Source: Paludibacteraceae bacterium
GTDB taxonomy: Bacteria; Bacteroidota; Bacteroidia; Bacteroidales; Paludibacteraceae
Assembly (NCBI GenBank): GCA_029974315.1
Contig: JARKSE010000054.1
Coordinates: 1 to 40,372 of the forward strand
DNA: 40,372 nt
Reading direction: 5' to 3'
In this document: positions 1,238 through 21,016 of the stretch, one piece after another
How the letters are laid out: each line of letters opens with the position of its first letter
Position numbering within the stretch: position 1 is the first letter of the stretch
Translations under genes and position numbers: made by a program
Notes under the pieces: model-generated
What the model was told of the DNA's origin: nothing
Seen by the model: the letters and a program-made list of their open reading frames with translations, nothing else
The model's database searches: none

Positions 1238-4200
1238 ATGAAAACAACTATATTTGGTCGTATGAATAGACAGAAAACAGTGATTGTGTCTTGTTTATTG
1301 GCGTTAAGTACCAGCCTATTTGCACAGCAACTACCAGATGCAGGTTTTGAGAATTGGAGTGGTTCATTCAACGGAGACGCTCAACTAGTCAATTGGAATG
1401 GATCCAACGTGACACAGGCAGGCTTTAAATTTACATTTTTATATCAAGATGCAGGACGCACTGGTGGCAAATGTGCGCGCATTGCAGATAAAGAAGTAGG
1501 TGCAGCGGGTATCACGGAACCAGCTCCTGGCTATATGGCACTCGGTCAACCATGGAGTTATTTGGAAAGTATCACTAAAATTGGTGAAGCAACTGCAGGA
1601 ACAGATGGTGGTATCAGCTTTACATTTCGTCCCGATACGATGGCTGTATGGATTAAACGTACAGGAAACAATACCGACAAAGAATATTACAACGTACTCT
1701 TCTATTCGTGGAAAGGCAATTCTATTGGAACGAGTTATACAGGGAAAAATGGAGGTTGTACGTCTACGATGCACACCAATGAAGAATCGGATATTCGACA
1801 AGCCTTGAATGGAAATACTTGTAATACCAGTACTTTCGCCACTCAAATTGCAGAAGGTTGGGTTAAAGAGAAAAAAACGTATGGCGATTGGACGCGCATT
1901 AAGGTGCCGATTTACTATATGGATGACGAAAAACCATCGATGTGTAACGTTATTTTATCAGCAGGTAACTACCCTAATTTCCGAGCAAATAGCGGACTTT
2001 ATCCAGGCAATACACTTTACGTAGATGATATAGAGTTAATATATAGTTCTGCTATTAACGAATTGTATGTTAACAATAAAAAGTGGGCGGGGTTTGATCC
2101 AAACTTAAATCACGGCGAAGAACAAACCTACGCATTAGGTCTGGGCGTTACCACTGTACCAACTATTTCAGGGAAACGTGGTTCAGGTTCTATAACCAAC
2201 GCGAAAGGAACATCAGCTAGTTTTACAGGACGCACGCTTTCTGGCAATGAAATCACCATCACCAACGCTACGGAAGTGGGCGGAACTGCTGGTAAAAATA
2301 TCACTACAATTGTGGTAAAAGCCGAAGATAACTCGTCTACTTCCACATACAAAATCAAATTTGTAGCAGAACAATCAACTAATTGCCGTCCATCTAACAT
2401 CACCTACAACGTAGCAGGAACCACTACGAGTGTTCCTAATTTCAGTGGATTTGTAACCAGTTACAATGTAGAGTTACCATACGGAACAGCAGCCATTCCA
2501 ACTATTGAAGCCATTAAAGGAGACGATGGACAAGAGTTTGTGTACACACAACCAGCCACATTACCAGGAACAGCCACTGTAAAAGTGACGGCAGCTGACA
2601 AAAATTATTCGGCCACATACACCATTAACTTCTCGGTTGGTCAACTAGATGACAATAAACTAACAGACATCAAAATTGGTGGTAATTCATTACCGGGCTT
2701 TTCACCTACCAAAACGAGTTACACAGTAGAAATGCCACTAGGCACTACAACCTTACCAACCATTGAGCCTATTTCGGCGTATGCTACAGGCATACAAACC
2801 ATTACAACCGAAAATACAGTAACAATTGCTGGTGAAACTTGTACGGGAACTTACAATATTTCGGTAAAAGCACCAGGCAACGCTACGGTTCGTATTTACA
2901 AATTATCATTCAAAATCACAGCATCTACCTACTCATATTTAAAAGACATAAAAATTGGCGGCACTTCTATGGAAGGATTTGATCCTACCACGCTGGCTTA
3001 TGCTTATGTTCTACCTCAAGGAACCACCGTATTACCAACCATTGAGGCCGTGAAAGGCGATGCGTACCAACAAACCCCAGTCATCGAAACTGGCGGTGTA
3101 GATGGTGTTACAAAAATTACGGTTACAGCAGCAAGTGGTGCTCAAAGCATTTATCGAATTACCTTTAGTGCTCCAAAATCATCCAATGCGCTGTTGCAGG
3201 ATTTGAAAGTAAATGGCACCACACTGCCTAATTTCGATCCTAATACACTCACCTACAACTACGAATTCCCTATTGGAACAACCAATTCACCAACAGTAAC
3301 TTATACAGCAGGCGATGCTTTCCAAACCATTACAAAAACGGATGGAGGATTGAACGGTTCCACGCGTATTATTGTACAAGCACAAAATGGTACTGTCAAA
3401 ACATACGTTATAAACTTTTCGGTAGCGCGTGCGGATAACACAACCTTGTTGGACATAAAAATTGGCGGTGTAAGTATTCCAAACTTCGATGCTAACACCT
3501 ACAACTATACCTATAAATTGGAACGTGGAACAACCACTCTTCCTGCCATCACATACACCGCACACGACGAATTCCAGACTATTACCGTGCGTAACGGTGG
3601 CATTGATGGCGAAACAAAAATTATCGTAAAATCACAAGTTGGCACATCCGCCACTTATGTCATCACATTCTCTGTTGACATATCGTCAAATGCTTCATTA
3701 CAAGGTATTTTTGTTGGTGGAACAGCACTAAACGGTTTTAATGCAAACGTTTTCAATTACAACTATGAGTTACCAATCGGTACAACCACGTTGCCCGCCA
3801 TTACTTGGACGGCAGGCGATGCCTACCAAACAATTACCAAAACAGATGGTGGACTCACTGGCACATCATCTATCGTAGTACGTTCGGAAGATGGGACAAA
3901 AACGAATACTTACCGTATCACATTTGCGGTGGCACAAGCTAACAACACCACACTTAACGACATTCAAATAGGTGGCGTAAGCATTGCAGGTTTTCAACCA
4001 AACACACTGGAATATAGTGTAATGCTTGAACGTGGAACAACTGTTTTACCACCAATAACCTACACACTACACGACGAATGGCAAAAAGTCCGTATAATTT
4101 CTGCAGGTGTTTCAGGTGATACACGTATCGTAGTTACGGCTCAAACTGGCGCAACTAATACGTATATTATCCATTTTTCAGTAGATAAATCTACTATTTG

Positions 4201-7200
4201 CCATTTATCAGACATTCAAATAGGAAACATTTCACTGATAGACTTCAATTCAACTGTATTGAATTATAATTACACATTAAAAAGTGGAACCACTACTCTG
4301 CCTGAAATTACTTATACCAAAGGTGACGAAGCACAAAAAGTAATTCTAACAAAAGGTGGTATAAACGGTGTTACTACTTTACGTGTTATAGCCGAAAGTG
4401 GCGCTGAAGCCACTTATACAATCAACTTTACCGTTGAAAAATCTGAAAATGCTTTCTTGAAAAACATTTTTATCAATGATGTTGCTATTAATAACTTTGA
4501 TAAAAACGTATTCAATTATACTTATCGTTTGAAACCAACGGAAACAAGCTGTCCTAAAATATCGGTAGAAAAAGATTTAGGACAAAGTGTTTCTATTTCT
4601 AAACCAATACTTACAGGCGATGTGCGTATTGTTGTAACACCTGAGAGCGGTGGTAGCAACACATACACCATCAAAATAATGTATGATTTATCGGATAATA
4701 CTGCACTTAATGCACTTCAAGTTGGCGGAGAATTAATCGCAGGATTTACAAGTGATAAATTCGAATACACTTACAATTTACCTACGGGTACACAAACGCT
4801 TCCTGCAATTACTTATACTGCAGGCGAAATGAGTCAAGAGATAGCCGTTACCAAAGGCGATACCACTTATGTACGTGTAGAAGCAGCCGATGGTTCTGAA
4901 AGTGTTTATACAATTTATTTCAACTATGAAAAATCTAATAACGCTCATTTGGCAGACATCAAAGTAGGTGGCATTTCATTATCTAGTTTTAATGCCAATA
5001 CGTTAGAATACGACTATGAATTAACTGATGGAACAACAAGTTGTCCAACAGTAGAAGCTGTTAAAGGCGATGTAACTCAACAAGTTTCCATTGTAAAACC
5101 CACTCTGACAGGGCATTGTGACATTAAAGTGCTTTCTGAAACAGGTATAGAAACACTTTATACCATTAATTTTTATTTTAACAAATCGACAGTAAGCACA
5201 TTAACTGCACTAAAAGTAGATGGTACTAATATACTTGAAAATGGTAAATTAGACTACAACTATCAATTAACGGCTGGTACAACTGTATTGCCAACCATCG
5301 AATATGAAAAAGGCAATGCAAAACAAACGGTAACTACTTTAACTAACGGAGTTAATGGTAAAACATCGGTTATTGTAAAAGCTGAAAATGGAAATGTAAC
5401 AACTTATACTATCAATTTTGCAGTCACTCAATCGAATGTAGCAAAACTGCAATCTATCCATTTAGATGGCGTAGCATTAGCAGGATTTGATCCAAATACA
5501 TTCGATTACCTTCACACATTAGCTTTTGGTGCAACACAGGCACCTATAATTACAGCTACTGGCGCAGAACCAACACAGCAAATCACAGTTATAGACGCTC
5601 CTTCATTAGAAGGAACAGCACATATCAAAGTTGTGGCACAAGATGGTACTGTTGGAACTTATAGTATTAAATTTACTAACACAATACAAACTAACGTCAC
5701 ACTCAAAAATATAGCTGCTAACAATACAACTATTACTGGTTTTGATCCAAACAAAACTGACTATACCATTGAGTTAGAATCAGGTACAGCAGCTCCTTCT
5801 ATCACATACGAAGCGTACGATTCTACGCAAGTAATTGCTGTGGCAGATGCAGGATTGAAAGGCACAACCATAGTTGTTACTGCACAAAATGGCGATCAAC
5901 GTCGATATACTATAAACTACACTGTGCTACCAAGCAGCAATGCTTTATTATCTAATTTACAGCTATATAACGGTAATGAATTTGAATCTTTAGCTGGTTT
6001 TACTACAAACACAGCAGAGTACACGCATTCATTAGAATGGCGTACAAAACACGTTCCTGCTATTCATCCAATATCGGCACATGCAGGACAAACTGTAACT
6101 ATCCACTACGGAGCGGTTAATGACACTACCCGAGTACATGTGGTTGCAGAAGATGGTACGTCTAAAGACTATGCCATCTATTTCCCTGTTGTAAAATCGA
6201 GTGTTGCAACGTTAAGTGATCTTTCTATTGATGATGCCGAATTGTATCCAGCCTTTGAAGCGACTGAATTTAACTATGTAGCTACATTGGATTATGGAAC
6301 AACAAGCATTCCTGCTATTCGCTGGACACAAGGCGAAGATTTTGGCAAACAACTTATTGAACAAAAAGTTCAAATTATCGCTCCAAGCTTACAAGATACA
6401 GCTCATGTGGTTGTAACTGCTGAAGACGGAACACAGAAAACTTACAACATTACCTTTGTGGTACGTGAAAGTGGGAAACCAAACGTATTACAATCTATTT
6501 TTGTAGATAAATATCATTTTGATGGAACTACTACTCAAACTGAATTCCAAGTAGAATTACCATTTGGTGCAACAACTATGAGTACTATCAATGTGGTAAA
6601 AACCTATCCTGAGCAAACTGTTTTAATCGACAATGGAGGCATTTATGCAAAAACTATTATCACGGTAAAATCGAACCAACAAGGCGTGGCTGATGCTGTT
6701 TATACACTTATTCCAACTATTGCTAAACCACAAGCTGCATTGGAAAATATCATTATAAATGGAACTCCGATTAGCGATTTTAATCCTTATAAATATCAAT
6801 ACATCGTTAATGTAGACAATGGCGAAGGCGAGGTTCCTACATTGGAATACACACATAACAGCACTACTTCAGTTATTGAAGATTTTGCGACAGGTGTTAA
6901 GAGTTCTACGATTACAGTAACAGGAAAAGATGACAGCAGTAGTAATACATACAAAATCGTCTATTACTACACCAATGACGTACTTCCTAACGGCGAATTT
7001 GTCAATTGGACCAATGCTGAAATTTACACAGCTGCTAAAAAACCAACAGGTTGGACAACCATTGCAGACGCAGTAGATGCTACAGATATCAAAAGTAATG
7101 CAACTATTTTTGGTCTGCCAATCGGTAGCTTGATTACGGTGGGAACTTACACGCCTGATGCTGCCATAACACAATCTGGCGATAGAGTTCGCTTAAGAAC

Positions 7201-10200
7201 TATCTATAATAGCTCGCTCAAAGGCTCAATTCCTGGTTTAATTACATTGGGCGAAATTGCTGCTAAATTAGGCATGGAATCTACCACAACCGACGTATCG
7301 GGCGGTATTTTATTCCGCAATACGCCTGATATGGTGTCGATGCGCTATCAACCTGTTTCAAAATCGAATGTTACAGGATCACACTTTGTCTATTCGCTCA
7401 ATAACGGCGCATACAAAAAAGAGTTTACCGATAACAATTTTAACAATAGTTGGAAAATTATCGATTTACCTTTATTAGATAATTTAGTAGAAGCACCAAC
7501 CATGATGAATATCATCATCAATAGCTGCGAGGCAGAAAACTCAAGTTCTTTGTCGAACAATGCTTCTTCTGAAATGTTTGTTGATTGGATTCGCTTGTCG
7601 TACAACAGTAAAATTGCTAAGATTTTAGTCAATGGTAAAGCAACTAAAGGCTTTAGAGGCAAATATGATGGTGGTTGGGTACAAGCCGTTAATGTTGATG
7701 CCGAATTACAAGGTGAACCAACCCTAACTTTTGTAGGTGAAGTGGCCGACCAAGAATACAGTTATTATTTTGATGAAGAAGTGGAAAACTGTAGTGGCTC
7801 GAAAACACGCGTTGCCTACATTACATCTAAAGCAGAAGATGGAACACTAAGTCAGTATATCGTCAACTTAAATCGTCCATATTCCACTAATGCCAACTTA
7901 ATGGGCATTATGGTAAATGACGAGACTGTAGCTGGTTTTACACCAACTACAACGACTTACACCATTGTAACAAACCCACTGTATGTACCTGACATCATGG
8001 CTATACGTGGCAACATGCATCAAACCATTACATACGATACTATTTCCAACAACTTAGCGGTAATCAAAGTAACCGCTGAAAATGGTACTGAAAAAACATA
8101 TACATTGCATTTTGTAAAAGCAATGAGTGCTGATGCAACATTGAAAAATATCACCATAGAAGGCGTTACTGATTTTGCATTCGTAGCAGATAAAATCAAT
8201 TATGTTGTACAATTACCAGCTGAAACAGGATTACCTAATGTAACGTTCGAAAAACAAAGCGACGGACAACTTGTGGATATGATGGTTGATACCGTTACTA
8301 CACTATTGACCACTGCCGAAAATGGAACAGATACAAAAACTTACACAATTACATTTGAATTTGGCAATTTACCAACTACATCAGGTAAATTAACAGAAAT
8401 AAAAATAGATGGAATTCCTGTAAGTGGTTTTAATAAAGATAATGCCAATTATGAAAGCACTAAGCGAGCTTCAGTCGATTTTGTACGAGAATTTGATGCT
8501 GATACTGTTACGCAAATTATCACCGCTGACTCCATCGTTTGGCACGTGTCAGGTGGAATACGTCATGATTATAAGCTAATCTTTACCAAAACATTATCAA
8601 ATTCTGTATTGTTAAAAACAATCCTTGTAGGTAATGACACATTAGACATATTCCATAGTTATGAAACTGATTATGAAATAACAAGTGATACTATAGACAA
8701 CATACAAGCTGTTTATGCCGAAGCAGGTCAAACCATTGAGGCAGAATTTGAATTAGGCGATACTGATTATCATGGTACATTCAAATTCTTAATTACAGCT
8801 CCCGATGGCATCACTAAAGACTCTACAATGGTACGTGTTAGACGTCAAAAATCAAATAGTGGAAAATTAAGCGCTATTTTACTGAATGATGAAGTTATAC
8901 GTATCAATGGAACTGGTTATAATTCTAACATAAATTTCAACGCCGACAGCACACAATACGTCATTACATTGCCATGTACGAATCCAAAACTGGTAAATCC
9001 TAAAATGCCAAATATCCAAGCGACAGCTGGTGCTAACGGACAACATATCACTATTGAACAAAATGGTATCAACGCCACATCATATATCGTAGTGAGACCA
9101 GAAAATGGTTCGGTAGCAAATGAAATGAGTTACGAATTGGTAGTGGTTGCAGCTAAATCCAACAACAATAACTTAGCGAACATCGTTGTCAATGGCGAAT
9201 CTGTAACAGGTTTCCAAGTTGATAATTTGAACTATAGTATTGATTTGGCTAATAACAGCTTGCCTACCGTAGAGTTTGTTACAGAAGATCAATTCTCAAC
9301 AGTAACGGCTCTCGTGTTACAAGACTCTGCTCTACTTATTGTAAAAGCAGAAGATGGAACCGAAAAAACCTATTGTGTGAAATTTAACATCACGCCTATC
9401 TCAAACGATGCAACATTGAGTGATTTGACTGTTAACGGAACAAGTGTATCAGGCTTCAGTGGTAATTTGTTAAATTACAACCTCACACTAGCACAAGGTA
9501 CAACTACACTTCCAAACATCGAGGCATTTAAAGCACACGATGGTCAAACGCTTAACATTATCAAAAATGGCGTAAGCGATACTACCTTCGTTCAAGTTAC
9601 CGCCGAAGATGGCGTAACTACCCAAACGTATAAAATAGCGTTTAATGTAACCAAATCGAATAATGCTGATTTGGTAGGGATTTCGGTAAACTACCAACCT
9701 ATTTCCACATTTGATGCTAACAACTTACGTTATCACGTGGTATTGCCAACTACAATGACACCAAATGTTATTGGCGTGAAAGCAGAAGGAGTACAACGTA
9801 TTGACAAAACGATTTACGGTGCCGATTCTGTTTATCTCAAAGTGACTGCCGAAGATGGAATAACTACCAAAACTTATGTGGTCACGTTTGAAGTACAGGC
9901 TGCCCAAAATGCTTATTTAGGAGGTTTACTATTAGATGACGTCAGCATCGAAGGCTTTGACGCTAACATCTTGAATTACGTAGTTACTTTGCCTGCAGGT
10001 TCTACGGTTACACCAGAAGTTACAGCTATTAGTGGTAGCAATGGACAAAACATCATTATCACCAACAACGGTGTACGCGATACAACTACCATTGTAGTAA
10101 CCGCACAAGATGGTATTACAACACTCACTTATACCGTATTCTTCGCTGTAGAATTGTCTGACATCGACACGTTGAGTATGATAAACTTGGACGGCGATCC

Positions 10201-12862
10201 GTTAGCTAATTTTGATGCGAACACTACGGTGTATAATATTTCACTACCTGTAGGAACTCGCACGTTCCCTGTTATCACCTGGGAAAAAGGCGAGCGCATG
10301 GAACATACTGTACTCGACACTGTGAATATCACCAAATATGAAGCCACGTTCAATATCCGTGTTGAATCTGAGAAATTCCACGCCACAGGAATCGGTAATT
10401 CACGTACCTACAGCGTTAAATTTACTATCGAAAAATCGTCTATTGATACCTTAGCAATGATTTATGTGAATGGTGATTCAATAGACAATTTCCAAGGTAA
10501 CACTTTGCGCTACAATATCGTATTATCTGTAGGTACACGTGTGTTGCCAACTATTGAACACAGCCTGGCCGATACATTACAAACAGCTGTTATAGAAATT
10601 GTTGACGCCAATCTTTCAGATTACACGGCACAAACAAATATCAAAGTAACAGCAGAAAACGGCAGCCAAAAAATATATGAAATACACTTTACAGTAGAAA
10701 AATCAACAATTGACACATTGAAAAACTTAACTATCAATGGTTTGAGTATTACTACAACAGGTGTAAATTATACTGCAGATAAAGCATTTAATGGAACTAC
10801 GTTTGAATATCACGTACAATGGGCTATCGGTTCGGCTAAAAATCCGTTACCTGAAATTACATACGAAGTGGGCGACAGTTTACAAACAGCCCAGCCTCAA
10901 ACCATAACCGTAAACTCTTTGAGCGACACCATTTCGATCGTAGTAACTGCCGAAAACGGCAATAGCAACACCTATATTATTTATCAAGAATTGCTCCATT
11001 CAGACGTTAATACATTGGCAATGATTTATGTAAACGATGCTCCATTAGCAACATTTAATGCCGATACGCTCACATACAACATAACTCTGCCAGTAGGAAC
11101 ACGCCATTTACCAAAAATCGAATTCGACAAAGGTGATGTTTGGCAAACAGCCGTATTGGACACTATGTTAACTGATAAATACACATCAAAATTTGCAATT
11201 AACGTAACAGCTGAAAGTGGAAAACAACGCACTTACACCCTGAATTTTACAGTAAAAAAATCAGCTGTCGACACATTGTCGATGATTACCATCGATGGTT
11301 TACCACTCGCTGGATTCAACTCGCAAGTAGGAGTGTACAACTACACGTTACCAATTGGTACAAGCGAACTTCCTGCTGTGGCTTATGAACTGGGCGATAC
11401 ATTACAAAAAGTTCAGGCAACCAGCCATGGTGTAAATGGTGCGTATAGCATAACAGTTACGGCTGAAAATGGAAAACAAAACGTGTATGTTATAAACTTT
11501 ACCGTTGCAAAATCAAATAATGCGTATTTGAGCAACATTTTCTACAACGCTACACAAGCAGTCGACAATTTCGATGAAGAGTTATTTAACTACATCATCA
11601 AATTGCCATACGGCACCGTAGAAATACCAAGTATCACAATTGAAAAAGGTGATCCTGGACAACGTGTAGAAATTACGCAAGCTACAACATTACAGGATAC
11701 AGTAGTCATCACTGTTAAGGCAGAAGACAACGTAACTACAGCAACGTACAAAGTTACGTTCGAACTCTTAAAATCCGATAATGCACTATTGAATATGATC
11801 TATTTGAATGGTGAAAAAATAGATAGTTTAGCAACTGGGTTCACAACCAATATCAATTTTGCTCCTGAAGCATTTGAATATAACATCGAATTACCATTTG
11901 GTACTACAACTCTACCAACTATCACTTGGGAAGGGCAAGTAACAGATTACAAATCGATTACATTAGTAACTAGTGGCATTAATGGAACTGCAATGATTAC
12001 TGTTGTGTCAGATGACGAATCTAACACCAATGAATACCATTTGACATTTAGTGTAGCCAAATCAAGCAACAATAAGTTAGCTAATCTATTAGTGAACGGT
12101 GTAACAATCGAAGGTTTCCATTCAGATTCTTTAAACTACACCATTGTTTACCCTATCGGAACAGATTCTGCGGCACTTATTACTGCTACTGATATAACTT
12201 ATATTGCGGGTGACTCTGTACAAACGGTAGTGGTATCACAATCGGAACCAACTACAATTTTAGTAACAGTTACAGCAGAAAATGGTGTTACACAGGTTTA
12301 CGTTATAAATCTTGAAATTGCACGTTCCAACTATCCACTTCTAAAAGATATCAAATTAGATGGCGTGTCATTGAAAGGATTTGAGCCCAACGTGTTTGAG
12401 TACACATTCTTACTATTCAATGGAAAACCAATTCCAGAAATAGAAGCTGTAAAAGGTCAAAAATCACAAACTGTACAGATTACAATTAATCCTGTAGGCG
12501 AATTAACTTACATTTTCGTAACCGCTGAAGATGGCACGGAAGCAGTTTACAAAATTGATTTCCGCTACTCTACACTTAATCCTGGAGATGCTCCAACCAA
12601 AGATGATGTGTACTGGATGCCACTTGGTAGCGGAACGTACAAAGCAAGTTCATCACGCAACAACGTAAAAGTTGCTATCTTTACACCTGCTGGTCAATTA
12701 GTTGAAATGCGTGACGTCCCCGTAGCCGATCCAAATGATAACATTAAAGAAGAAGGTTCGGCGGGTGCAGTATTCAATTTCTCACGCTTAGGTAAAGTAC
12801 TGATTTACGTATTCTACTTCAATGATAAAGAAATTGTAATTCAAGGTAAATTTATTTATTAA
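1238..12862 (+). CDS. Giant secreted/surface protein: signal peptide, PCMD-like domain, ~19 cadherin-like repeats, second PCMD-like domain, ~19 more repeats, T9SS-like C-terminal domain
   Basis: Single 3874-aa ORF. N-terminus 'MNRQKTVIVSCLLALSTSLFAQQLPDAGFENWSG' is signal peptide plus PCMD-like start. About 38 copies of an ~80-95 aa unit with consensus 'L..I.V.G..I.GF.pNt..Y.v.Lp.GTTtLP.I....gD..QtvtI...g..g.t.I.VtAEdGt..TYtI.F.V.kS.N'. Ends '...VKVAIFTPAGQLVEMRDVPV...GKVLIYVFYFNDKEIVIQGKFIY'. Confidence 0.9.
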   Translation: MKTTIFGRMNRQKTVIVSCLLALSTSLFAQQLPDAGFENWSGSFNGDAQLVNWNGSNVTQAGFKFTFLYQDAGRTGGKCARIADKEVGAAGITEPAPGYMALGQPWSYLESITKIGEATAGTDGGISFTFRPDTMAVWIKRTGNNTDKEYYNVLFYSWKGNSIGTSYTGKNGGCTSTMHTNEESDIRQALNGNTCNTSTFATQIAEGWVKEKKTYGDWTRIKVPIYYMDDEKPSMCNVILSAGNYPNFRANSGLYPGNTLYVDDIELIYSSAINELYVNNKKWAGFDPNLNHGEEQTYALGLGVTTVPTISGKRGSGSITNAKGTSASFTGRTLSGNEITITNATEVGGTAGKNITTIVVKAEDNSSTSTYKIKFVAEQSTNCRPSNITYNVAGTTTSVPNFSGFVTSYNVELPYGTAAIPTIEAIKGDDGQEFVYTQPATLPGTATVKVTAADKNYSATYTINFSVGQLDDNKLTDIKIGGNSLPGFSPTKTSYTVEMPLGTTTLPTIEPISAYATGIQTITTENTVTIAGETCTGTYNISVKAPGNATVRIYKLSFKITASTYSYLKDIKIGGTSMEGFDPTTLAYAYVLPQGTTVLPTIEAVKGDAYQQTPVIETGGVDGVTKITVTAASGAQSIYRITFSAPKSSNALLQDLKVNGTTLPNFDPNTLTYNYEFPIGTTNSPTVTYTAGDAFQTITKTDGGLNGSTRIIVQAQNGTVKTYVINFSVARADNTTLLDIKIGGVSIPNFDANTYNYTYKLERGTTTLPAITYTAHDEFQTITVRNGGIDGETKIIVKSQVGTSATYVITFSVDISSNASLQGIFVGGTALNGFNANVFNYNYELPIGTTTLPAITWTAGDAYQTITKTDGGLTGTSSIVVRSEDGTKTNTYRITFAVAQANNTTLNDIQIGGVSIAGFQPNTLEYSVMLERGTTVLPPITYTLHDEWQKVRIISAGVSGDTRIVVTAQTGATNTYIIHFSVDKSTICHLSDIQIGNISLIDFNSTVLNYNYTLKSGTTTLPEITYTKGDEAQKVILTKGGINGVTTLRVIAESGAEATYTINFTVEKSENAFLKNIFINDVAINNFDKNVFNYTYRLKPTETSCPKISVEKDLGQSVSISKPILTGDVRIVVTPESGGSNTYTIKIMYDLSDNTALNALQVGGELIAGFTSDKFEYTYNLPTGTQTLPAITYTAGEMSQEIAVTKGDTTYVRVEAADGSESVYTIYFNYEKSNNAHLADIKVGGISLSSFNANTLEYDYELTDGTTSCPTVEAVKGDVTQQVSIVKPTLTGHCDIKVLSETGIETLYTINFYFNKSTVSTLTALKVDGTNILENGKLDYNYQLTAGTTVLPTIEYEKGNAKQTVTTLTNGVNGKTSVIVKAENGNVTTYTINFAVTQSNVAKLQSIHLDGVALAGFDPNTFDYLHTLAFGATQAPIITATGAEPTQQITVIDAPSLEGTAHIKVVAQDGTVGTYSIKFTNTIQTNVTLKNIAANNTTITGFDPNKTDYTIELESGTAAPSITYEAYDSTQVIAVADAGLKGTTIVVTAQNGDQRRYTINYTVLPSSNALLSNLQLYNGNEFESLAGFTTNTAEYTHSLEWRTKHVPAIHPISAHAGQTVTIHYGAVNDTTRVHVVAEDGTSKDYAIYFPVVKSSVATLSDLSIDDAELYPAFEATEFNYVATLDYGTTSIPAIRWTQGEDFGKQLIEQKVQIIAPSLQDTAHVVVTAEDGTQKTYNITFVVRESGKPNVLQSIFVDKYHFDGTTTQTEFQVELPFGATTMSTINVVKTYPEQTVLIDNGGIYAKTIITVKSNQQGVADAVYTLIPTIAKPQAALENIIINGTPISDFNPYKYQYIVNVDNGEGEVPTLEYTHNSTTSVIEDFATGVKSSTITVTGKDDSSSNTYKIVYYYTNDVLPNGEFVNWTNAEIYTAAKKPTGWTTIADAVDATDIKSNATIFGLPIGSLITVGTYTPDAAITQSGDRVRLRTIYNSSLKGSIPGLITLGEIAAKLGMESTTTDVSGGILFRNTPDMVSMRYQPVSKSNVTGSHFVYSLNNGAYKKEFTDNNFNNSWKIIDLPLLDNLVEAPTMMNIIINSCEAENSSSLSNNASSEMFVDWIRLSYNSKIAKILVNGKATKGFRGKYDGGWVQAVNVDAELQGEPTLTFVGEVADQEYSYYFDEEVENCSGSKTRVAYITSKAEDGTLSQYIVNLNRPYSTNANLMGIMVNDETVAGFTPTTTTYTIVTNPLYVPDIMAIRGNMHQTITYDTISNNLAVIKVTAENGTEKTYTLHFVKAMSADATLKNITIEGVTDFAFVADKINYVVQLPAETGLPNVTFEKQSDGQLVDMMVDTVTTLLTTAENGTDTKTYTITFEFGNLPTTSGKLTEIKIDGIPVSGFNKDNANYESTKRASVDFVREFDADTVTQIITADSIVWHVSGGIRHDYKLIFTKTLSNSVLLKTILVGNDTLDIFHSYETDYEITSDTIDNIQAVYAEAGQTIEAEFELGDTDYHGTFKFLITAPDGITKDSTMVRVRRQKSNSGKLSAILLNDEVIRINGTGYNSNINFNADSTQYVITLPCTNPKLVNPKMPNIQATAGANGQHITIEQNGINATSYIVVRPENGSVANEMSYELVVVAAKSNNNNLANIVVNGESVTGFQVDNLNYSIDLANNSLPTVEFVTEDQFSTVTALVLQDSALLIVKAEDGTEKTYCVKFNITPISNDATLSDLTVNGTSVSGFSGNLLNYNLTLAQGTTTLPNIEAFKAHDGQTLNIIKNGVSDTTFVQVTAEDGVTTQTYKIAFNVTKSNNADLVGISVNYQPISTFDANNLRYHVVLPTTMTPNVIGVKAEGVQRIDKTIYGADSVYLKVTAEDGITTKTYVVTFEVQAAQNAYLGGLLLDDVSIEGFDANILNYVVTLPAGSTVTPEVTAISGSNGQNIIITNNGVRDTTTIVVTAQDGITTLTYTVFFAVELSDIDTLSMINLDGDPLANFDANTTVYNISLPVGTRTFPVITWEKGERMEHTVLDTVNITKYEATFNIRVESEKFHATGIGNSRTYSVKFTIEKSSIDTLAMIYVNGDSIDNFQGNTLRYNIVLSVGTRVLPTIEHSLADTLQTAVIEIVDANLSDYTAQTNIKVTAENGSQKIYEIHFTVEKSTIDTLKNLTINGLSITTTGVNYTADKAFNGTTFEYHVQWAIGSAKNPLPEITYEVGDSLQTAQPQTITVNSLSDTISIVVTAENGNSNTYIIYQELLHSDVNTLAMIYVNDAPLATFNADTLTYNITLPVGTRHLPKIEFDKGDVWQTAVLDTMLTDKYTSKFAINVTAESGKQRTYTLNFTVKKSAVDTLSMITIDGLPLAGFNSQVGVYNYTLPIGTSELPAVAYELGDTLQKVQATSHGVNGAYSITVTAENGKQNVYVINFTVAKSNNAYLSNIFYNATQAVDNFDEELFNYIIKLPYGTVEIPSITIEKGDPGQRVEITQATTLQDTVVITVKAEDNVTTATYKVTFELLKSDNALLNMIYLNGEKIDSLATGFTTNINFAPEAFEYNIELPFGTTTLPTITWEGQVTDYKSITLVTSGINGTAMITVVSDDESNTNEYHLTFSVAKSSNNKLANLLVNGVTIEGFHSDSLNYTIVYPIGTDSAALITATDITYIAGDSVQTVVVSQSEPTTILVTVTAENGVTQVYVINLEIARSNYPLLKDIKLDGVSLKGFEPNVFEYTFLLFNGKPIPEIEAVKGQKSQTVQITINPVGELTYIFVTAEDGTEAVYKIDFRYSTLNPGDAPTKDDVYWMPLGSGTYKASSSRNNVKVAIFTPAGQLVEMRDVPVADPNDNIKEEGSAGAVFNFSRLGKVLIYVFYFNDKEIVIQGKFIY

Positions 12863-15424: not shown

Positions 15425-15643
15425 ATGAAATTTATAGATTTATTTGCAGGACTTGGCGGATTTCATCTTGCTTTATCAAAATTGGGACATGAGTGTGTTT
15501 TTGCAAGTGAATTGTTACCCGAATTGCAAAGTCTTTACAAAAAAAATCACGGAATTGAGTGTGCAGGGGATATTAACCAAGTTGATATAAGTTCAATTAA
15601 ATCTCACGATATTTTATGTGCAGGATTCCCTATCAAAATATAA
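15425..15643 (+). pseudogene. Truncated C5-cytosine DNA methyltransferase (N-terminal SAM-binding motifs only)
   Basis: MKFIDLFAGLGGFHLALSKLGHECVFASELLPELQSLYKKNHG...HDILCAGFPIKI*. Motif I (DLFAGLGGF) is present, but the catalytic PCQ motif is interrupted exactly after 'CAGFP'. The rest of the MTase is missing. The ATG at 15425 is the likely start, not 15353. Confidence 0.85.
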
Positions 15644-15660: not shown

Positions 15661-16176
15661 ATGGAATATCAATTAGTATATCAGCTTTTTCCTCGTTCAT
15701 TTGGTATAACAGATGAAGTAAGAGCAGTAATATCTTGTTTTGAGAAAAACTACGAGCAAATAAAATCGCCTGACAATAATTTGAGCAGCGATGGAGTATT
15801 GCGTGTTATTTCCGATGATTTAGAAATGCTGAATTTCAAAGTTGAGAAAAGCAAAGCAAGCATTGATAAAATAAAAGTCCCTGTTCTTTTCAGTATAAAT
15901 AATAAAATTGATAAGTTCTTTGATGCCGATGCGGTTAGTGCAGACGGAAAAATTGTAATTGAAGTAGAAGCAGGACGAGCATATCGAAATAATCAATTTC
16001 TAAAAGATATTTTTCAGGCTTGTATGATGCCAAATGTTGAATACTTGGTTATTGCAGTAAGAAATCATTATCACAACAGCGATGATTTTAAATCAATCTT
16101 TCAGTTTTTGGAAACGCTTTACATAAGTGGAAGATTGCAGTTACCATTGAAAGGAATTGTTTTAATTGGGTATTAA
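15661..16176 (+). CDS. Putative PD-(D/E)XK-like nuclease, possibly a type II restriction endonuclease (BglII/BamHI-like active site)
   Basis: 'IDKFFDADAVSADGKIVIEVEAGRAYRNNQFLKDIFQACMMPNVEYLVIAVRN': Asp, then ExE after a short beta hairpin, then a helix and hydrophobic strand. It also sits directly after an MTase remnant. Confidence 0.55.
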   Translation: MEYQLVYQLFPRSFGITDEVRAVISCFEKNYEQIKSPDNNLSSDGVLRVISDDLEMLNFKVEKSKASIDKIKVPVLFSINNKIDKFFDADAVSADGKIVIEVEAGRAYRNNQFLKDIFQACMMPNVEYLVIAVRNHYHNSDDFKSIFQFLETLYISGRLQLPLKGIVLIGY

Positions 16177-16192: not shown

Positions 16193-18484
16193 ATGCAGTT
16201 AAATTACTTTCCCATAAATATTGAGTTTGATAAATTTCAAATTCTTACAGAACCATACAGCGAGGAACGCCTTGCAGAACTAAGAAATCTGCACAATTCA
16301 ACGCATTCTTTTTTCAGAAATGGAGATAGCATTTTTATTTCAAACAAAGATGCTAACGAAAATATTACAATCGGAAAAATTGCTGAACAAAGCACTTATG
16401 GCAATACCAACATAACGGCTTCGCTTATTAAGCATTTATTCTTTCGTACTTTTAAAGACCGATTTCCTAAGCATACGCCTGTTGATTTTTATCCGTTCCG
16501 TTTTTTTTCAGGGCAACAAAAAGACGATATTATTTTTGATGTTTTGCCTAACGAATTGAAAGGAAAAATTGCCTACAAAAAGCTAATTGAAGTACAACTA
16601 CGCCTAACTGAAATAAACGGTAAACAACAATTCGGTTTCTTAATCAACATAAAACGCAATTGGATTTTTAATAAAACGTGTGCCGAGTTACACTCTGAAA
16701 ATTATAACCTAATTGGCGTTGAAGTTATGTATGCCGAAACCTTGCCCGGATTTAGCAACATACTTGCTCCCAACGAAGAATTTGTTGGCGAGATAAAAGA
16801 AATTGTTGGCACAAAAGCCAATGTAAGCACCAACGCAGGTGAAAAAGAATATGAGTTGAGCGAATTGTTTATTCGCAAAACAAAATACAACATTGGCAAC
16901 TACTTAACTTTTGCCACTTCGCAACAAAAAAGTGATGAAGTGTTGCGTATTATTGAAAGTAAACGTGAAGACATTTACAATCCTAAAAAACTTTATGCTG
17001 AAATTTTAAAAACAGCCCAAGCGTTGTTTACCGATAAAGGAAATCCAATTTTGTTTCAGAACAAAGACGGTTTTTGTTTTACCGTAAACGCTACACCAAT
17101 AAGGGTTTCAAACAGCATAGAATTAAAAACACCAACTTTTATTTTTGACCCAGCAGCCACGCAAACAATCAATACTTATCCCGACAATGGCTTAAATAAT
17201 TTTGGACCTTATGATAGTGCGACATTTGATATAAAATCGCCCAACATACTTTGTGTTTGCAACAAAAATATAAGAGGAAATTTTACGCAGTTTCTTTCCA
17301 ACTTAAAAAACGGTTTGCCACAATCAAAGTATTTCAAGAAAGGTTTGCTCAAAAAGTACGATTTGCACAGCATTACGTTTGATGTAAAAGAAGTTCAAAG
17401 CAACACATTGAACGAATATCTAAACGTAATTCGAGATTATGACGACAACAAACCACATTTAGCGATTATAGAAATTCCTGAAAGTTTTAAACTTCAAAAC
17501 GACCAAAACAATCCGTATTATCAGATAAAGGCAAAACTCTTATCGCTTGAAATTCCCGTTCAGTTTGTTACGACACGAATTGTAAACAATCACAGCGAGT
17601 ACATTTTAAATTCTATGGCTTTGCAGATGTACGCCAAATTGGGCGGTACACCTTGGGTTTTGCCAACACAACGTTCCGTTGATAGAGAATTGGTAATTGG
17701 CATTGGACATAGTTGGCTTAGAAAAAATCAATACGCAGGTGCTGAAAGTAATCGTGTCGTTGGTATTACAACTTTTCTTTCAAGTGATGGACAATATTTA
17801 CTTGGCGACAAAGTAAAGGATGTAGATTTTGACAACTACTTTCAAGAGCTTTTAAAAAGTCTGAAACAATCCATTCAACGCCTTTCATCGGAACAAGGTT
17901 GGAGCGAAGGCGACACAGTGCGTTTGATTTTTCACATTTTCAAACCAATCAAAAATGTGGAATTTGAAGTAATCAGTCAATTGATTAAAGAAACTTCTCA
18001 ATACAAAATCAAATTCGCTTTTGTTACCATTGGAAATACACACCCGACAATGTTATTTGACCCAAACCAACAAGGCATAACATCATACGGAAGCAATATT
18101 CCAAAAGGCGAATACATACCAAACAGAGGAAGCAATATTTTTCTTGATGCGGAAACTTGCATTGTACAAATGTTAGGTGCAAGCGAATTAAAAACATCAA
18201 AACACGGAATGAGCAAGCCTGTTCAAATAAAAATCCGTACACCGAAAGGAAATTACAACAACAACGCATTGAACGATATGTTGTTTTATGATTTAAGCTA
18301 CATCACGCAACAAATATTTGCGTTCACTTATTTATCGTGGCGTAGTTTCTTGCCAGCCGAAGAACCAGCAACAATGAAATATTCAAACCTCATTTCAAAA
18401 TTGCTTGGCAAAATGCGAAACGTTCAAGGTTGGGACGCAGATAAATTGAACTATGGCTTAAAACGAAAAAAATGGTTTCTATAG
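16193..18484 (+). CDS. Long prokaryotic Argonaute (pAgo) with catalytically inactive PIWI domain
   Basis: MID/PIWI signature 'HLAIIEIPESFKLQNDQNNPYYQIKAKLLSLEIPVQFVTTRIV...YILNSMALQMYAKLGGTPWVL...RELVIGIGHSW...GITTFLSSDGQYLLG...VRLIFHIFKPIKNVEFEVI'. Expected PIWI acidic positions read Gly (IGIGHS) and His (IFHIFKP). The ORF track starts at a TTG (16166); ATG 16193 is the more plausible start. Confidence 0.85.
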   Translation: MQLNYFPINIEFDKFQILTEPYSEERLAELRNLHNSTHSFFRNGDSIFISNKDANENITIGKIAEQSTYGNTNITASLIKHLFFRTFKDRFPKHTPVDFYPFRFFSGQQKDDIIFDVLPNELKGKIAYKKLIEVQLRLTEINGKQQFGFLINIKRNWIFNKTCAELHSENYNLIGVEVMYAETLPGFSNILAPNEEFVGEIKEIVGTKANVSTNAGEKEYELSELFIRKTKYNIGNYLTFATSQQKSDEVLRIIESKREDIYNPKKLYAEILKTAQALFTDKGNPILFQNKDGFCFTVNATPIRVSNSIELKTPTFIFDPAATQTINTYPDNGLNNFGPYDSATFDIKSPNILCVCNKNIRGNFTQFLSNLKNGLPQSKYFKKGLLKKYDLHSITFDVKEVQSNTLNEYLNVIRDYDDNKPHLAIIEIPESFKLQNDQNNPYYQIKAKLLSLEIPVQFVTTRIVNNHSEYILNSMALQMYAKLGGTPWVLPTQRSVDRELVIGIGHSWLRKNQYAGAESNRVVGITTFLSSDGQYLLGDKVKDVDFDNYFQELLKSLKQSIQRLSSEQGWSEGDTVRLIFHIFKPIKNVEFEVISQLIKETSQYKIKFAFVTIGNTHPTMLFDPNQQGITSYGSNIPKGEYIPNRGSNIFLDAETCIVQMLGASELKTSKHGMSKPVQIKIRTPKGNYNNNALNDMLFYDLSYITQQIFAFTYLSWRSFLPAEEPATMKYSNLISKLLGKMRNVQGWDADKLNYGLKRKKWFL

Positions 18485-19347
18485 AAAATAGAGTATCATA
18501 TATAGAAAGAGTAAACGAAAGCCCGAAGTTAAAGGCATTTCATTATTTCCTATTGGGTAAAGAAATTAGTTCTTTGTCTAATAGTGATTTAGATAAACAG
18601 TTTTTCAAAATTGTTTCGGCTATTCAAACTGATAACAAAACAGCGTTTGAAGAAGTTTACGCAAAAAAGAGTAAAAGCAAACCAACCAAAGATTCGCCAG
18701 CACCTTTTGTAAGCGATGATTATTTGATTTTTTGTTTGATTATTGGCATTTGCAAATTCAGCATTGACAAAACTTGGATTAAAAATATCATTTCTATTCG
18801 TAACAGAAACATCACAACAATTACGTTCGAAAATATTTTAAACGAAAACTATTCAAGCACCAGCAATCAAGCGGAAATTGTATTAACTTTTTTGTCTTTG
18901 TATAAACAATCAAAAATCAACAATGATTTGCTAAACGCAGCATTAAAAAGCATTACAGAAAATACGACCTTACTTGAAAATAAAAATGATTTTCAAACCT
19001 TGTGTGCATTTAGAGCATACGATTTTATCATTTACCAAAAAGAAGCAAGTGAAGGAAACGAAATAACTTCACTAAAAAACTTCAATCAGAAATTCAAAAC
19101 ACGTATCAAAGTTTTGTCTTGGTTTTTGCAAGCAGCAATCTTTTTCGGCTTGATTTATGGTTTGTTCAAACTTCCAATCTATACACCCGAAGCAGTTGCG
19201 TTCATAGAAAAATACAATTTCGTATTCACACTTTTAGGAGTCTCAGGATTTACATTTTTAGGAAATCAAATTCCTATTATCAAAAACAAATCGCAAGAAT
19301 TTCTAATGAGATTATTTGGTTATCCCAAAAAGCTAATCAAAAAATAA
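18472..19347 (+). CDS. pAgo-associated membrane protein with two C-terminal transmembrane helices (candidate effector)
   Basis: Start overlaps the pAgo 3' end by 13 nt (translational coupling). Soluble N-terminal ~210 aa, then TM segments 'VLSWFLQAAIFFGLIYGLFKLPI' and 'FVFTLLGVSGFTFLGNQIPII' (about 19111-19281). Confidence 0.75.
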   Translation: MVSIENRVSYIERVNESPKLKAFHYFLLGKEISSLSNSDLDKQFFKIVSAIQTDNKTAFEEVYAKKSKSKPTKDSPAPFVSDDYLIFCLIIGICKFSIDKTWIKNIISIRNRNITTITFENILNENYSSTSNQAEIVLTFLSLYKQSKINNDLLNAALKSITENTTLLENKNDFQTLCAFRAYDFIIYQKEASEGNEITSLKNFNQKFKTRIKVLSWFLQAAIFFGLIYGLFKLPIYTPEAVAFIEKYNFVFTLLGVSGFTFLGNQIPIIKNKSQEFLMRLFGYPKKLIKK

Positions 19348-19351
19348 AATT

Positions 19352-20023
19352 ATGAAAATGCTCAATAAATTAGACGAGTTCAATTATGAAGATGGAAATC
19401 CGTTTTTAATCAAAAACGGAACAATGAAGTCTTACGTTTATGTAAAAAACTTGTCTTCTGCCTATTTCAAAGAACGTCCCGATACAACAAGAGCACAGTT
19501 GCCAATACGAGAAGAGTTTGACGAAATCAAAAAGTCAGATATTCCTTTTATCTTTTTAGGCTACGACCAGCAAAATGATGTTTTAGTGTGTTGGAATTTT
19601 TATAATGTCAAAGCACGTTTAAATGAAAAACGAAGTGTGTCATTTTATTCTCGACAGTTTTTTCAAGATGAGGTTTCATTAGGTACTTTTCTACGCAAAC
19701 GCTTAAAAAATGGCGATGAACCAATTCTTTTCAAGCGTAGAGATTTAGTTGAATTTTTCAATCAAATTGACACGTTCTTTCATATATCCCAAGATGAAAC
19801 GCCTAACGCTATTAAACCTACAGAAAAAGTTGATAATGAACAATTTGTTTCAAATGGAAAGTTATTAAGAATAACAGACAAAGAGTTAATAGAGCAATTG
19901 AAACCACTTATCGAAACAAAACGTACTTTGCAAGCATTAAAGGTCGTTGGCGATTTTTACAAAGGACAATTTCCAACTATGAAATTAGCAGATTGGAACA
20001 AATTAATTAAAGATATTCATTAA
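19352..20023 (+). CDS. Uncharacterised accessory protein of the pAgo cassette
   Basis: Starts 4 nt after the TM gene stop, same strand. 'IPFIFLGYDQQNDVLVCWNFYNVKARLNEKRSVSFYSRQFF' looks like a conserved alpha/beta domain, possibly a restriction-associated N-terminal-type domain. No family assigned with confidence. Confidence 0.6.
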   Translation: MKMLNKLDEFNYEDGNPFLIKNGTMKSYVYVKNLSSAYFKERPDTTRAQLPIREEFDEIKKSDIPFIFLGYDQQNDVLVCWNFYNVKARLNEKRSVSFYSRQFFQDEVSLGTFLRKRLKNGDEPILFKRRDLVEFFNQIDTFFHISQDETPNAIKPTEKVDNEQFVSNGKLLRITDKELIEQLKPLIETKRTLQALKVVGDFYKGQFPTMKLADWNKLIKDIH

Positions 20024-20689: not shown

Positions 20690-21016
20690 ATGTACGTATT
20701 TCTCGTAATACTTTTTATAATAGCGGTACTCGTAATATTTTTTATAATCGCGGTATTTGATCTAAAGCATTTTTCCTTTGAACACCAGCGCAAGGAAAGA
20801 CGTGATTATTACAGAAATGAGTATCTAAAATCAGAGGCTTGGCAACGGAAAAGATATGTCGTATTTAAACGAGATAATTGGCGGTGTGTTTACTGTGGCG
20901 CTCGCGCCACGCAGGTTCACCACAAACGGTATGCAAAATGGAATATTGGTAAAGAACCGATTGATTGGCTTGTTTCCGTTTGCGATAACTGCCATACTAA
21001 ATTACACAATCGGTAA
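20690..21016 (+). CDS. Membrane-anchored HNH endonuclease domain protein
   Basis: N-terminal TM 'YVFLVILFIIAVLVIFFIIAVF', then HNH/zinc motif 'WRCVYCGARATQVHHKRYAKWNIGKEPIDWLVSVCDNCHTKLHNR'. Confidence 0.75.
   Translation: MYVFLVILFIIAVLVIFFIIAVFDLKHFSFEHQRKERRDYYRNEYLKSEAWQRKRYVVFKRDNWRCVYCGARATQVHHKRYAKWNIGKEPIDWLVSVCDNCHTKLHNR

Follow-up and report, generated by a model that had tools for sequence, protein, structure and literature searches.

Long-B prokaryotic Argonautes (pAgos), all of which lack the catalytic tetrad of the PIWI domain (PMC6299218), have been described with different partner proteins. In the systems named BPAM the partners are the og_100 proteins, which are transmembrane (TM) proteins (Song et al. 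2023, PMC10620215). The member from Elizabethkingia anophelis, EaBPAM, cuts E. coli viability about 1000-fold only when the two proteins are present together, C-terminal TM region included; this killing was independent of an added invader plasmid, and no physical interaction between Ago and bAgaM was seen (PMC10620215). In BPAN, represented by EcAgo and EcbAgaN, the effector is a PD-(D/E)XK DNase, and the gene following RsAgo also encodes a predicted nuclease (PMC10620215).

Here we analyzed a 40,372-nt stretch of a Paludibacteraceae genome (the window), which belongs to an 82%-complete draft of 205 contigs. With a probability of about 0.8, it carries an intact two-gene BPAM system in which a catalytically dead long-B pAgo would serve as sensor and a bAgaM membrane protein as effector of abortive killing (Table 1). 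This kind of system is already known, while the member is new and its setting unusual. As in EaBPAM, an inactive long-B pAgo is followed by an og_100-type protein with a C-terminal TM region; compared with the published description of EaBPAM, the window pair differs in lying within a broken restriction-modification (RM) operon with a small gene, ORF171, upstream. The pAgo is homologous over its full length to that of BPAN and shares with RsAgo the long-B type, the dead PIWI domain and a YK-type MID pocket, whereas the next gene encodes a membrane protein and not a nuclease.

Table 1. Features of the locus and of related loci. Window positions are given as numbers only; other loci are named by their L identifiers.
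Feature	Position	Strand	Basis
C5 DNA methyltransferase remnant, 72 aa, broken at motif AGFP(CQ); outside BPAM	15425..15643	+	PF00145, profile positions 1-70 of 324
ORF171, small nuclease-like gene; probably outside BPAM	15661..16176	+	Homologue alignment, locus comparison
Long-B pAgo, 763 aa; predicted guide-directed sensor	16193..18484	+	Frame, profiles, alignments
MID 5'-phosphate pocket Y442, K446, Q457, K482	17516..17638	+	Alignment; motif from PMC6299218
Gly505, first catalytic (Asp) position of PIWI	17705..17707	+	Alignment
Phe583, probably in the column of the third catalytic Asp	17939..17941	+	Invariant in 18/18; putative column
bAgaM-type effector, 291 aa	18472..19347	+	PADLOC Aga_Unknown class II; conserved partner
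Two predicted TM segments of the effector, residues 214-232 and 252-270	19111..19281	+	Hydropathy, helical model
MTaX1 (methylase-associated X1), RM operon remnant	19352..20023	+	PF20296, 5.2e-25
ORF171 family at other loci	L003:5469-5984; L041:5420-5935; L042:6012-6527; L029:7829-8335; L043:2772-3278; also L070, L071, L072
Palindromic element of about 88 nt (TGCGTGAGGGATAG...GGGCACGCCC)	L041:5290-5379, 5936-6025; L029:8336-8423; L043:3279-3366; L072 (reversed) 4437-4522; L089:772-801

The Argonaute gene and its catalytic positions

Judged from its sequence, the product of this gene is a long-B prokaryotic Argonaute. Its reading frame is intact from the ATG start; a longer frame from a TTG at 16166 would overlap the upstream gene, and the alignment of its relatives begins at the ATG and not at this TTG. 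The first-pass annotation had called a long pAgo with MID and PIWI domains, and the profile searches agreed, since Pfam Piwi matched residues 434-740 (E=9.9e-18) and the PADLOC class II model pAgo_II (PDLC02379) matched over its whole length (profile positions 1-724 of 724; 2e-268, 890 bits). EcAgo (3.5e-79) and RsAgo (about 7e-66) are the closest solved structures by sequence matching to the PDB, and EcAgo could be aligned full-length, consistent with the N-PAZ*-MID-PIWI organization of long-B pAgos. Residues 209-234, which had been read as a possible PAZ-like/OB fold, correspond in the alignment to RsAgo and EcAgo to the reduced PAZ/L1 region, and an OB fold there is hypothetical.

Active PIWI domains carry an Asp at the first catalytic position. 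As had been proposed, this position is a Gly in the window pAgo (G505), invariant in all 18 aligned sequences and also found in those long-B pAgos with a nuclease or SIR2 partner that were compared. By itself this residue breaks the DEDX tetrad, and the PIWI domain is predicted to be inactive. The canonical strand around the third catalytic residue is xxFxRDG, and the His at 17933-17935 that had been taken for a catalytic position is correctly identified as a residue (H581) but probably not as the catalytic column, which in register with this strand would more likely be F583. The 18-sequence alignment included no active pAgo, and the third and fourth columns are therefore putative; at both of them the window pAgo has non-acidic residues. 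Furthermore, the strand RLIFHIFKP is devoid of acidic residues in the aligned BPAM sequences, and the fourth position (about residue 732) varies across the alignment between N, D, S and T.

The pocket for the 5'-phosphate of the guide is of the YK type. The RsAgo MID motif consists of Y463, K467, Q478 and K506 (PMC6299218), to which Y442, K446, Q457 and K482 of the window pAgo align, and these four residues are invariant in the 18 pAgos. Because the MID pocket is invariant and the first catalytic position is G505, the protein, as read from these residues, is one that keeps the binding of a 5'-phosphorylated guide and cannot cleave.

The membrane partner and the Argonaute tree

The first-pass annotation had expected an associated effector, which it left unnamed; this is the bAgaM-type gene downstream, which overlaps the pAgo gene by 13 nt. 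Its product matched the PADLOC Aga_Unknown class II model (1.5e-120, 400 bits), which from its description and the topology of the protein we infer to correspond to og_100. The gene directly follows pAgo in 20/20 relatives whose DNA extends that far (19 fetched loci with a long enough contig and a Hymenobacter plasmid, L009 and L022 being the same contig and counted once), with the gene overlap in nearly all of them. The pAgo of Winogradskyella psychrotolerans (L018:6001-8311) is apparently frame-shifted near its 3' end, with bAgaM intact.

Alignment of 16 effector homologues revealed few invariant residues, and by hydropathy nearly all of them have two hydrophobic segments, one around 212-241 and the other around 244-273. 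The AlphaFold model of the effector is all-helical, with a mean pLDDT of 82, and its C-terminal part contains the long helices 195-237 and 249-281, so that hydropathy and model together predict the C-terminal TM region that characterizes BPAM. Comparison of the model with the PDB gave no significant structural match, with TPR-like hits below significance. Additionally, the PADLOC search yielded no nuclease-effector (Helical-REase/bAgaN) match for either ORF171 or the gene after pAgo, which speaks against membership in BPAN.

A dead pAgo could also suppress plasmid or phage DNA simply by guide-directed binding, without abortive infection and with the membrane protein employed otherwise, since in a heterologous host the binding of RsAgo represses expression from the plasmid and/or leads to plasmid degradation (PMC10620215). 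However, the conservation of the membrane partner in all 20 relatives and the requirement of the TM region for the toxicity of the tested BPAM (PMC10620215) make this very unlikely, and both favour a membrane effector of abortive killing.

In a maximum-likelihood tree of pAgos, with partners assigned by PADLOC or by homology, the window pAgo falls in a branch of 18 rows with moderate support (84/97), all of whose members have a TM partner, and the Capnocytophaga canis pAgo is its sister (98/98). A separate branch (100/99) holds the Shewanella, Fibrella and Methylococcus pAgos, which are paired with Helical-REase proteins, and also the Roseomonas gilardii pAgo, which has no partner gene adjoining it within the stretch read; the Leptolyngbya pAgo, whose partner is a SIR2 protein, is placed outside. 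The place of the window pAgo itself is firm, and the depth of the tree is uncertain because its outer branches are long. The placement among long-B pAgos with TM partners, together with the profiles and alignments, fits the earlier proposal of a long-B-type sensor for a separate effector.

By identity, the closest relative of the pAgo comes from Flavobacterium (88%), which makes horizontal transfer likely. No other Piwi proteins were found in the host's own genome and no pAgo relatives in five other genomes of the family, and 4/393 genomes drawn from the order, its own included, contained one. The GC content of the island is 0.32-0.35, compared with 0.41-0.43 in the nearest flanks. The viral contigs searched held no relatives of pAgo or ORF171, and plasmids yielded no more than distantly related pAgos and, for ORF171, a weak fragment. 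A syntenic empty site was unreadable in the five genomes of the family that were searched, because folD and hemW are either on separate contigs or far from each other.

Restriction-modification surroundings and ORF171

By its flanking genes, the pAgo-effector pair sits inside a broken RM operon, whose MTaX1 remnant is without about 13-15 N-terminal residues. The order in C. canis (L003) is truncated methyltransferase, ORF171, pAgo, bAgaM, a 128-aa piece that matches a Z1-type gene of L041 at its C-terminal end, DUF4420 and MTaX1. The truncation of both the flanking methyltransferase and MTaX1 in the window would agree with a pair that is carried in a degraded operon and is no longer functional, but the pAgo and bAgaM frames are intact and their dN/dS with respect to C. 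canis is well below 1 (pAgo, about 0.09; effector, about 0.16). Both genes are thus under purifying selection, and loss of function is extremely unlikely.

Counting the window, RM genes accepted by Pfam or record annotation are found near the pair at 12/22 loci, on the same strand and mostly adjacent. At L011, L015, L019 and L031 the pair comes directly or a few genes after hsdS, and hsdR follows it at L015 and L019 (confirmed by Pfam) and at L031 (read from sequence). This association among 22 loci suggests that BPAM pairs often lie inside RM operons. In L019 (2842-12367), a CBASS-like SMODS/AGS_C gene, a SLATT_4 gene and the BPAM pair are nested between hsdS and hsdR of a type I RM operon. 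Promoter and terminator scans gave nothing beyond what shuffles give, and Rfam had no matches in 15-21.2 kb. Directly past the island, 20690-21016 encodes a small HNH protein (PF01844) that has a hydrophobic segment at its N-terminus and whose HNH part weakly matched the NCBIfam IscB model (1.1e-8). The product of 1238-12862 is a protein of 3874 aa that apparently carries a signal sequence and is made up of many repeats of about 80 aa (TLLDIKIGGVSIPNFDANTYNYTYKLERGTTTLPAITY type).

ORF171 is a protein of 171 aa in which D90, E101 and E103 (D90...E101xE103) are invariant across 10 homologues. These residues recall the active site of BamHI, D..ExE. The Pfam profile HSDR_N_2 matched it only at E=0.14. 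Relatives were detected in 5/396 genomes of the phylum at E<=0.001, two of them weak, and in 9/395 genomes of the class, with its own genome counted in both, and none were found in the phages searched. ORF171 could be the true effector or an additional one, a pAgo-activated nuclease of a three-gene ORF171-pAgo-bAgaM system: in both the window and C. canis it lies 17 nt upstream of pAgo on the same strand, its D...ExE residues resemble a PD-(D/E)XK site, and the synonymous divergence between the two loci is similar for the three genes (dS 0.99, 0.90 and 0.90 for ORF171, pAgo and bAgaM, respectively), of which ORF171 is the most conserved. However, it occurs at just these two of the BPAM loci examined, which makes such a role quite unlikely; moreover, it had no Helical-REase effector match, and its structure model (pLDDT 54) is too poor for a fold call.

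The relatives of ORF171 in other genomes also argue against it. A truncated or internally deleted C5-methyltransferase precedes the gene in L041, L042, L029, L043 and L070; at L071 and L072 the gene is found at an RM operon without a remaining methyltransferase. In two types of RM operon the family repeatedly adjoins truncated methyltransferases and next RM genes that are likewise truncated, and in other genomes it stands alone; these relatives have no pAgo beside them within the stretches read. Since ORF171 also occurs without an Argonaute beside truncated methyltransferases, it probably does not belong to the Argonaute system. In L047 (194-4140) a BRCT-like gene has a duplicated 5' fragment (82 aa) in addition to its full copy, and an ORF171 relative is located between the two. 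Additionally, inverted copies of the palindromic element flank ORF171 on both sides in L041, and one copy directly follows its stop codon in L029, L043 and L072. The element is also present elsewhere in some ORF171 genomes, with 8 matches in one of them (G829), and on a viral contig, where it comes after a SIR2-like gene.

Among its loci, ORF171 has dS values of 0.99-1.33 (1.65 to L042), close to the values that pAgo and bAgaM show when the window is compared with C. canis, whereas the methyltransferase dS between L003 and L041 is higher (2.8, near saturation). From this comparison and the placement across loci, ORF171 probably invades RM operons independently, and the BPAM pair probably joined it before the copies in the window and in C. 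canis diverged, as far as few loci and saturated distances can indicate. That the three genes form a single mobile unit targeting and replacing the middle of RM operons, with ORF171 as insertion or guide-processing enzyme, seems improbable to us.

Proposed mechanism and implications

In the two-gene BPAM system that we favour, the pAgo would load a 5'-phosphorylated small guide in its intact MID pocket, presumably RNA by analogy with RsAgo and EcAgo, and would find complementary invader DNA that it is unable to cut. Target-bound pAgo may then activate the bAgaM encoded by the overlapping gene, whose two C-terminal helices would damage the inner membrane and thereby make the cell die or stop growing before the invader spreads. 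BPAM systems lying inside RM operons would couple such DNA-guided suicide to restriction. Lastly, among the three named long-B systems BPAM is the one that is least understood, with a single tested member in the papers found, and this locus and its 20 relatives provide a conserved effector family for mutagenesis, with two predicted TM helices, a helical cytosolic domain and few invariant residues.
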